Translations under genes and position numbers: made by a program
In this document: positions 2,233 through 63,800 of the stretch, in pieces
Position numbering within the stretch: position 1 is the first letter of the stretch
How the letters are laid out: each line of letters begins with the position of its first letter
Notes under the pieces: generated by a model
Database searches by the model: none
The model's input: the letters and a program-made list of their open reading frames with translations, nothing else
Told to the model about the DNA's origin: nothing
Assembly: GCA_902781515.1 (NCBI GenBank)
Contig: CACZJU010000002.1
Location: 90,628-154,627, forward strand
Source of the DNA: an uncultured Bacteroidales bacterium
GTDB taxonomy: Bacteria; Bacteroidota; Bacteroidia; Bacteroidales; Bacteroidaceae
DNA length: 64,000 nucleotides
Reading direction: 5' to 3'

Positions 2233-2498
2233 AAATCCTCCGAATGGAGGGATAGAATGCTTCGTGCATAACATTACTATACTTGTCGTCATAAGACCTA
2301 GGCCTTATGCCAACAAGACGCAGGTCTTACGTCCACAAGGTCTAGAACAATGAGCATAGGTTCGCGAACCTTCGGCTGTAGGTTATATTAACCTATGGAC
2401 GGAGATAATATTAACCTATGCTGATAAGTTATATTAACCTATGGGCATAGATAATATTTATCTGCTTCTGCTGGAAAATAGTTGTAGTCGCAAAAAAA

Positions 2499-2548
2499 CC
2501 TCACAACCTCCCCCTCCCCTTTATTTATCGGGGCTGGAGGCGGTGAGG
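2499..2548. repeat. long hairpin, arms CCTCAC..CCTCC, loop TTTATTTATC
   Basis: The left arm CCTCACAACCTCC pairs with the right arm GGAGGCGGTGAGG around an inner CCCC/GGGG stem. The loop TTTATTTATC is the reverse complement, with one change, of the GATGAATAAA loop of the copy at 28794. More copies of the CCTCACC arm word follow immediately (2561-2580). Confidence 0.7.
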
Positions 2549-2681
2549 TTTGCTTTCAAACCTCCCCCAAACCTCACCCCAACCTCCCCTCATGGATGAT
2601 GCTCATGCAAAATGAATTGGTAAGAGATATTTTAAGATAAAATGGGAGGTTTAGGTGAGGTTTGGGTGACCTTTGCGAACA

Positions 2682-2727
2682 AACCTCCCATTGGCGAGGC
2701 CTTTATTCATCGGGCCTGGGGGAGGTT
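2682..2727. repeat. long hairpin, arms AACCTCCC/GGGAGGTT, loop TTTATTCATC
   Basis: An inner stem GGCC/GGCC closes the loop TTTATTCATC, the exact reverse complement of GATGAATAAA. Outer arms AACCTCCC and GGGAGGTT pair. It is preceded by GGTGAGGTTTGGGTG, which faces the CCTCACC words of the first hairpin, so the two hairpins form a larger inverted arrangement. Confidence 0.65.
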
Positions 2728-2930
2728 GTGAGGTTTTTTCACATCTTCCCTTTTTTTCAAGTGCTGAGAACACCATTTACAATACTTAGGCCTTACAGCA
2801 ACAAGACCTAGGTCTTATGACAATAAGGTCTAGGTCTCCCGACGGAGGGATAGTAGGGCTTAACAGGAAGGATTACTATTCCTACAGGCATAGGGATAGT
2901 AATCCTTCGAGGGAGGGGATGTATGACGGA

Positions 2931-28361: not shown

Positions 28362-28793
28362 GCGACTATACGACAACGAGCCAATTTTGCGCTGGTTAAT
28401 CACAAGGTACTAGTCCTTATTGATCTAAGTACTAGAACTTGTGGCAATAGGTTCGCCAACTTATCGCAATAGGTTAAGTTAACCTTCGGCAATAAGTTAA
28501 CTTAACCTATGGACGGAAATAATATTAACTTATGTCGGTAAGTAATATTAACCTATCGGTACAGTTAATATTAACCTTTGGACGGAGGAATAGTATCCCT
28601 ATGAGGGAAGGAATAGTATCCCTAAGCGCATAGGAATAGTAATGTTCCGTGCTTAACATTACTATCCCTATCGTCATAAGACCTAGACCTTATCGCAACA
28701 AGACCTAGGTCTTATCGACACAGGTACTAGAACATATGAGCATAGGTTATATTTATCTACTTCTGCTGAAAAACAGTTGTAGTCGCAAAAAAA

Positions 28794-28843
28794 CCTCACA
28801 ACCTCCCCCAGGCCCGATGAATAAAGGGCTGGAGGCGGTGAGG
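28794..28843. repeat. long hairpin, arms CCTCAC..CCTCC, loop GATGAATAAA
   Basis: CCTCAC-AA-CCTCC pairs with GGAGG-CG-GTGAGG around a GCCC/GGGC stem closing the loop GATGAATAAA (28816-28825). Arms are the same as at 2499, but the loop is in the opposite orientation. Confidence 0.72.
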
Positions 28844-28995
28844 TTTGCTTTCAAACCTCACCCAAACCTCACCCAAACCTCACCACAGAAATTCTTCAAC
28901 ATCAAGGAACATCTGAGTTGCGCAGCAAACTATGCCCAAAGTAGGTGGGGCAGGTGCAATAATTTATGAGTTTTTTGCTCGAAAAAACCATCATT

Positions 28996-29037
28996 CCATC
29001 ACCTTTCCTTTATTTATGGGGGCTGAACGGGTGATGG
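28996..29037. repeat. hairpin with CCATCACC/GGGTGATGG arms
   Basis: CCATCACC pairs with GGGTGATGG around TTTATTTATG (29009-29018), a variant of the conserved loop. Further GGTGATGG words continue to 29068. The arm sequence is unrelated to the CCTCAC arms, yet pairing is kept. Confidence 0.65.
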
Positions 29038-29076
29038 ATGGGGTGATGGATGGTGATAGTGGTGATGGTTTTTGCA

Positions 29077-63429: not shown

Positions 63430-63800
63430 TATCACAAGGTTCTAGTAATTAGTGAAACAAGTACTAGAACCTTTGGCAATAAGTTAACTTAACCTGTAGG
63501 AATAGATTAAGTTAACCTTTGACGAGGTCTTTATGCCTGAAAATGAAGAAATGTGTGAAAACAGGTACCCAGGTACCTCTACCGTCTTTAAGCCCCGATG
63601 AATAAAGGCCTCGTCAGCAGGTACCTGTCAGCGTACCTCCATTCCAAGCCCGATGAATACTGGGCTCAACGTCTGTTAAGGTAGTAAGTTACCTGTTTTT
63701 GCGTAATGCGTATTTTTCTGACAAATTGGAAAGGTCGCAGAGGCTTTCACGATAAGACCTAGACCTTATCTCCATAAGACCTAGGTCTTGTTGTCATAAG
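63430..63800. repeat. repeat island IV: palindrome arrays and GGTACCT hairpins
   Basis: From 63432 to 63520 lie TACTAG and GTTAAGTTAAC units as in islands I-III. Two hairpins with GGTACCT arms follow: 63571-63626 with loop GATGAATAAA (63597-63606), and a second one with GATGAATACT (63652-63661) flanked by GTACCT and TTACCT words. After a short unique stretch come AGACCTAGACCT and the exact palindrome AAGACCTAGGTCTT (63776-63789). The order arrays-hairpins-arrays repeats that of island I. No gene is seen between 63307 and the 5S rRNA. Confidence 0.75.
63571..63626. repeat. hairpin with AGGTACCT arms, loop GATGAATAAA
   Basis: AGGTACCT at 63571-63578 pairs with AGGTACCT at 63619-63626 (each is itself palindromic). 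The inner stem GCC/GGC closes GATGAATAAA. The arm word is unlike CCTCACC and CCATCACC of the other islands, while the loop is the same. Confidence 0.65.

Follow-up and report, generated by a model that had tools for sequence, protein, structure and literature searches.

The six hairpins that an initial annotation described in the 64-kb window, the whole stretch of DNA analysed here, are all present in its sequence and are probably the end modules of dispersed Bacteroidales elements, full copies of which carry one short VapE-like helicase gene between inverted modules. The module architecture, its link to a VapE gene, the inverted modules flanking this gene, the short two-ended elements and the 11–12 bp phasing of the repeated words are evident at the level of sequence. 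Linking the short VapE gene to inverted iteron ends and scattered copies would give this protein a substrate and a job, and would account for puzzling intergenic repeats; we know of no job described for the stand-alone short VapE proteins of Bacteroidales.

End Modules in the Window

Each end module consists of outer words, the core CCGATGAATAAAGGG or a variant of it, an inverted word, and a run of two or three direct words spaced at about 11 bp, and two modules facing each other bound short dispersed elements. The window hairpins are real and form part of this larger unit, the end module of a dispersed element. The loop is exactly GATGAATAAA at three of the six sites and GATAAATAAA, CATAAATAAA or GATGAATACT at the other three; taken alone, the ten-mer is not above chance, with 8 occurrences in the window against 5.05 expected and 12 of 100 shuffles as high. 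Among the literature matches listed for this ten-mer, none is by its title concerned with the hairpin family.

M1 (2492..2739) is a complete non-autonomous element in which two inverted end modules with the words CCTCAC/ACCTCCC give the word map > > c < > > > ... < < > c < <, and its outer inverted repeat is AAAAAACCTCACAACCTCCCCC/GGGGGAGGTTGTGAGGTTTTTT. The core of its left end module (2494..2552, + strand; folding z −3.5) is oriented opposite to that of the copy at 28789 (compared at 2518 and 28814, respectively), with the arms the same. Three direct words at 11-bp spacing follow (2559..2590, + strand; starts at 2559, 2570 and 2581). On the right side, the word map places two inverted words, also at 11-bp spacing (2644..2662, − strand), ahead of the right end module (2682..2735, − strand; z −2.3), which has the exact loop on the − strand at 2702-2711. 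Directly left of M1, at about 2036-2230, a nucleotidyltransferase-like reading frame that is cut off (GSRARGEARKDSDWDLL) was noticed by eye.

M2 (28787..28886, + strand; z −4.3) is a single end module in which the loop is exact and three direct words recur every 11 bp; no partner end was recognised for it. M3 (28982..29073; z −1.8) is a compact element with the word CCATCACC, the loop variant CATAAATAAA and the outer ends AAAAAACCATCA/TGATGGTTTTT. M4 (63558..63699; z −1.7 and −1.6) is also compact, with the word CAGGTACCT; of its two cores, the one at 63597 is GATGAATAAA and the one at about 63652 is GATGAATACT. By eye, outer flanks of two kinds are common to elements with different words in the genome of the window, being seen at window positions 2450-2491, 63520-63557 and 63700-63745 and also at loci L082, L088, L089 and L005; the unit that is conserved may reach about 40 bp past the words.

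Distribution of Copies

The genome to which the window belongs (2.46 Mb, 46 contigs, 86% complete) holds eight exact copies of the strict core, defined by four G/C on each side, and none of the reversed pattern. When the core is relaxed to three G/C and one mismatch, 24 copies are found versus 3 for the reversed control; 23 of the 24 were read, and in our judgement the surrounding words mark 22 as true ends and one (L081) as a chance match. At least five words are in use in this genome (CCTCACC, GGTACCT, CTAACA, CCTCAT and CCATCACC). The copies of genome G061 share the word ACCTACCAT and those of G062 the word AGTGACCC, with the module order in G062 mirrored relative to the core.

The initial annotation had named copies in related genomes as a check, and the outcome is mixed. 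Within the genus, the strict core is absent from the 60 relatives searched, a wider version of it is absent from the 138 other genomes of the genus, and a looser 15-base core occurs in 4 of 33 genomes; multi-copy sets are present in other Bacteroidales. The numbers of cores there, with the reversed control in brackets, are 32 (1) in G061, 13 (0) in G062, 3 (1) in G063, 5 (0) in G064, 5 (0) in G065 and 2 (1) in G066. Across the family, the 15-base core is found in 19 of 399 genomes (reversed control: two genomes, one match each), with 16 copies in G435, 9 in G496, which is apparently the same genome as G062 judging by the places of its copies, and one or two in most others, some of these being chance matches. 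A pattern scan of genome contigs returned 32 stretches that match the hairpin pattern. Inspection of 17 by eye placed 11 in Bacteroidales records with paired arms, most of them with repeated words; the remaining six are without repeated words.

Two further variants were noted. The cores of G435 (e.g., L136, L155 and L165) are accompanied by long words of another kind, which by eye are CTCGGAGCTATTTG-like, in a genome that gave no VapE match, and two loci in records titled Muribaculaceae and Porphyromonadaceae (L040 and L027) share a conserved stretch ahead of the core and AGTTAGGCGGA arms, with no tandem words.

The Linked VapE-Like Gene

Scattered copies lie beside mixed genes: one of 20 neighbouring proteins is VapE-like (L038), and a further 20 proteins beside cores in other genomes include four that are VapE, DUF927 or DUF5906/D5_N helicase-like. 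Searching the genome of the window for the VapE domain identified three genes, each with a core 56-64 bp after its stop codon; by our own arithmetic, with 22 ends spread over 2.46 Mb, the chance that a gene end picked at random lies within 500 bp of one of them is roughly 1%. Each of the three genes has a different word (CCTCAT, CCTCACC and GGTACCT), and the same words recur in scattered copies.

Among 24 VapE loci of seven genomes, a core-like match with at most three mismatches lies within 420 bp of the stop codon in 7 of 10 short genes and 1 of 14 long ones; at four mismatches, a weak criterion, the figures are 10 of 10 and 1 of 14. The 11 genomes of the VapE search were picked for holding cores, so these counts do not come from a random sample. 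Four of the 11 (G061, G435, G065 and G066) gave no VapE match at E values up to 0.001; G061 and G435 look like drafts, and their many copies with no VapE match count against the link.

The 410-aa protein P0001, in which VapE and DUF3874 parts are recognised, has Pfam matches that include PF05272 (VapE) and no nuclease domain. It has matches in 51 of 399 family genomes, with the short form (361 bits or more) at 59 places; below these, the scores drop to 260 bits and less and belong mostly to a form of ~700 aa. A helicase role in the replication of mobile elements has been predicted for VirE/VapE-type domains (PMC5862659), and the term "inverted repeat" is absent from the main text of that paper. 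By title or abstract start, no description of VapE genes between iteron inverted ends was found in the listed literature, which covers subscription journals thinly.

Downstream of the short VapE gene, 12 of 57 loci (L235, L247, L257, L258, L260, L263, L267, L278, L279, L280, L287 and L296) have a related ORF, with a gap of 3-15 bp in three of them, as if the two formed one operon; the one tested, in L235, is a DUF6078 protein.

Inverted Modules around VapE Genes

Sixty short VapE loci were assembled, 56 from the P0001 search and four from stretches fetched earlier, and 53 of them had enough flank for the upstream flank to be locally aligned with the reversed downstream flank. At a score threshold of 14 (95% point of cross pairs, 14.0; highest shuffled score, 12.0), matching inverted flanks are found at 30 of these 53 loci as compared to 1 of 104 control ORFs (length at least 300 codons), and 23 have no flanking inverted repeat above threshold. 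Four of 16 long VapE genes (L230, L301, L302 and L218) also have inverted flanks, which are therefore not restricted to short genes. Of the 25 members of the clade around P0001, 20 have inverted flanks, three have the right-hand module only and two lie at contig edges. On the whole tree, the inverted-flank label changes 14 times against a shuffled mean of 19.7 (3 of 500 shuffles as low), which describes a trait that is clustered but patchy; in this count, loci with too little flank were scored as "no" and row L268 is a wrong ORF, leaving 57 VapE rows.

Among 30 right modules, 24 have a tandem period that exceeds all 60 shuffles, 21 of these at 11-12 bp; among 30 left modules, 22 do, with 12 at 11-12 bp and eight at 21-22 bp. 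Four full elements (L231, L255, L273 and L275) measure 1626, 1693, 1762 and 1802 bp and contain no ORF longer than 75 aa besides VapE. The core is not universal: it is found with at most three mismatches on either side in 8 of 23 VapE loci, two of which are the same gene, and other VapE loci carry core variants such as GATGCACAGG, GATGTACAAA, GATAAACACT or GCATAAACACT.

Seven of the 57 short VapE loci (L284, L285, L288, L289, L293, L294 and L295) have related genes upstream on the opposite strand. None of the seven passes the inverted-flank threshold, and the one gene tested (L284) matches HU-HIG.

Short Two-Ended Elements

Two facing modules are present at 19 of 27 loci in G061, where 18 of the resulting elements are 331-358 bp long and one is 525 bp. 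Over the 153 pairs formed by the 18 elements, mean identity is 83% for the ends, 66% for the interiors, 61% for the flanks and 62% for shuffled interiors, so the interiors are barely above chance for most pairs, though some align well. No clear excess of direct repeats indicative of a target-site duplication was seen at the 19 elements; the largest is 5 observed versus 2.1 expected, with many offsets tried. For one full element (L275), the joined flanks were searched against 150 genomes of its genus as a candidate empty site, scoring the best three places per genome. Matches were obtained in 48 genomes and none extends across the joint; the left flank is hardly conserved and the gene in the right flank is conserved.

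In another genome, a lone end module (L318) lies upstream of the same gene that flanks L275 on the right. A hybrid element was also observed: L254 has the left word AGGTAAGTGTT and the right word AGGTAGGTGTT, with the same right neighbour as L252 and a different left flank, and looks as if two elements had recombined.

The C-Terminal Domain and the Words

The three VapE paralogues in the genome of the window are 99.0-99.5% identical over residues 131-330 and 56-59% identical from residue 331 to the end. Contigs in this assembly end inside or just before the VapE genes, and the joint change of protein and word is seen there at the right end. A more complete comparison is provided by two paralogues on the single-contig chromosome of G387. 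Compared in windows of 60 bp, their DNA is 87-100% identical between about −150 and +930, and 13 of these 18 windows reach at least 95%; still further upstream, one window has 73% and another 98%. Identity falls to 32-60% across the coding sequence of the C-terminal part and in the right module, as it does in the left module from about −260 outwards, and at the protein level the contrast is 95% versus 29% for the C-terminal part. The words of the two differ, being GTGAGAGG and TGTGAGGGT. The two paralogues of G334 have C-terminal parts that are 93% identical and words that are one base apart. Counting against a coupling, L255 and L275 have C-terminal parts that are 90% identical and different words.

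Over 36 elements, the similarity of words correlates weakly with that of C-terminal parts when the ATPase part is controlled for (partial r 0.11, 35 of 2000 permutations; reverse correlation, partial r 0.09, 126 of 2000). With a correlation this weak, the case for coupling rests on the paralogue comparisons. By these, changes in the C-terminal part go along with changes in the words, seen at both ends for one pair and at the right end in the genome of the window. The paralogue sets consist of near-identical proteins whose differences lie mostly in the part expected to read the DNA word.

A structure model of the short VapE protein (mean pLDDT 87.1, pTM 0.76) predicts helix, strand, helix, helix, strand, strand over residues 335-405, an order of elements that we read as that of a winged helix. 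The best Foldseek match in the PDB is PriRep1 with dsDNA (7pds; E 6.7e-18, TM 0.62), followed by the C-terminal region of NrS-1 and, lower, the SaPI5 primase-helicase. A sequence profile search again gave 7pds as the best match (E 1.7e-15).

Proposed Mechanism and Related Systems

Full copies (1.6-1.8 kb in the four measured) encode one VapE-like AAA+ helicase of ~400 aa, which is related to SaPI PriRep1 and lacks the primase part found in the long VapE proteins of Bacteroidales, and short copies such as those in the window would have kept the ends alone. The words are best read as iterons for a Rep-like helicase and the ends as origin-like. The words would probably be bound on double-stranded DNA by the predicted C-terminal winged-helix domain, with the core between opposed words probably serving as the place where the helicase opens the DNA; host enzymes may then copy the element from its ends, and the products could join the chromosome elsewhere. 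In a viral contig (L176), the same core is flanked by TCTAGACA words and lies 26 bp away from a DUF927/NrS-1-like helicase gene, which supports an origin function.

A broader proposal, somewhat less likely than not, is that these are members of a transposase-free element class in which the only protein is a Rep-type helicase and both ends are iteron origins. Copies with or without the gene would spread by copying from the ends and joining without target duplication, and specificity would evolve by exchange of the C-terminal DNA-binding part along with the words of both ends, which would let several non-crossing families coexist in one genome. If such mobility is true, a helicase-only route by which DNA spreads in gut and rumen bacteria, apparently undescribed so far, would be added to the known kinds of transposition.

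The closest match to the protein in structure and sequence is the SaPI Rep/PriRep1 type, a helicase with a C-terminal DNA-binding part; P0001 matches PF05272 as a VapE-like Rep-type helicase would, and 7pds is its best match. In SaPIs, the iterons are sets of short words close to the helicase gene, and short words are likewise found near the gene here. The systems differ in that no integrase, phage-interference or packaging genes lie within L231, L255, L273 and L275, where VapE is the only ORF above 75 aa, and in that a module is present here at both ends, inverted, with short two-ended copies scattered in the chromosome. The long VapE proteins of Bacteroidales, the BT4734-type primase-helicases, share the VapE and DUF3874 parts and, in the 4 of 16 cases above, the inverted flanks, but have an extra N-terminal part (BT4734-like_N in L190) and mostly lack the core (present in 1 of 14). 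In AAV-type inverted terminal repeats, the hairpin ends carry tandem words to which an SF3-type helicase binds. The modules resemble these in their hairpin ends, putative tandem helicase-binding words and core in both orientations, and differ in that the protein has no nuclease domain among its Pfam matches and the element no virus genes.

The modules could instead be origins or decoys only, with VapE belonging to phage-satellite or anti-phage biology and the chromosomal copies, immobile by themselves, titrating or mimicking phage origins. The core near a helicase gene in the viral contig, the SaPI kinship of the VapE protein, and ends that are 83% alike around interiors near chance (66%, shuffled 62%) would all suit such a role, but two-ended copies scattered in different intergenic places need a means of spread, and three proteins of the linked gene gave no match to PADLOC anti-phage models. 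The viral scan found no close P0001 relatives on viral contigs either; distant relatives occur in 17 plasmid and 31 phage records and, among the matches listed, are at most 36.3% identical. This explanation is rather unlikely.

Ordinary MITEs of an insertion sequence, moved by a transposase in trans, with VapE as mere cargo or neighbour, would likewise appear as short two-ended elements with inverted ends, and inverted ends around a short non-coding body are what is seen at the 19 of 27 G061 loci and at M1 in the window. The ends match those of VapE elements, in genomes screened for some transposases. The lack of a target duplication, the presence of VapE as the only ORF over 75 aa in the four full elements, and the change of its C-terminal part with the end words argue against MITEs and make them decidedly unlikely. 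The BrickBuilt MITE of Porphyromonas gingivalis is comparable as a short intergenic tandem-repeat element in a member of the Bacteroidales; it has 23-nt repeats and 12-nt ends resembling IS5-family ends (PMC4596501), whereas the ends described here match a VapE gene.

REP/REPIN-like palindromes, whose hairpin and loop would be recognised by the single-strand Y1 (RAYT, IS200-like) transposase that spreads them, are also many, intergenic and hairpin-forming, with no target duplication and with ends better kept than interiors, and Y1 genes are found in five of the seven genomes searched. Spread of this kind is nonetheless very unlikely and was rejected: Y1 (PF01797) has no match in G000 and G061, the richest hosts among those searched, nine Y1 loci (L041-L049) do not contain the full GATGAATAAA, the words are helically spaced, and the gene linked to the modules is a VapE helicase. 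A GTAG- or CGTC-type end tag of the palindrome is reportedly a trait of REP/RAYT systems.

Fold and Spacing of the Words

The window modules fold better than the mean of their shuffled sequences, three of six clearly and three weakly; of the eight sequences folded in all, one that lies outside a module (L250:1300-1362) is no better than shuffles (z 1.17). Compensating changes in the arms had been taken in the initial annotation to mean that the fold and the loop are what is kept; the core is indeed conserved and the arms change as a unit, but covariation within one word family is not significant. In the 28 ends of this family, from G061, 86.8% of cells pair versus 26-52% with the partner slid, the structure having been drawn from these same sequences. 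Six of eight word-arm pairs are invariant, 20 of the 28 ends leave the inner pair 23-38 unpaired, 57 of 500 shuffles score as high for covariation, and spacer mutual information is low. Between word families, a change of the arms is accompanied by a change of the tandem direct copies, which are situated outside the hairpin at intervals of about one helical turn. This spacing points to a protein on double-stranded DNA, and opposed copies of one binding word would explain the paired arms at least as well as base pairing.

The suggestions of a single-stranded DNA hairpin used in transposition or of a protein site point in the right direction, and the view that the repeat matches no named family holds, as a tRNA is the only Rfam match in the window at the gathering threshold. 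An RNA element kept for its fold and loop, the remaining suggestion, has stable predicted hairpins at several copies and a conserved core in its favour but is scarcely credible given the non-significant covariation within a family, the helically phased words outside the hairpin, the link to a VapE gene and the lack of an Rfam match at the gathering threshold, on which a structured RNA family was rejected.

A second repeat, the palindrome AAGACCTAGGTCTT with at most two mismatches, is present in all three islands of the window, at 2293, 2315 and 2803, at 28678 and 28700, and at 63754 and 63776, and is three times paired, 22 bp apart.
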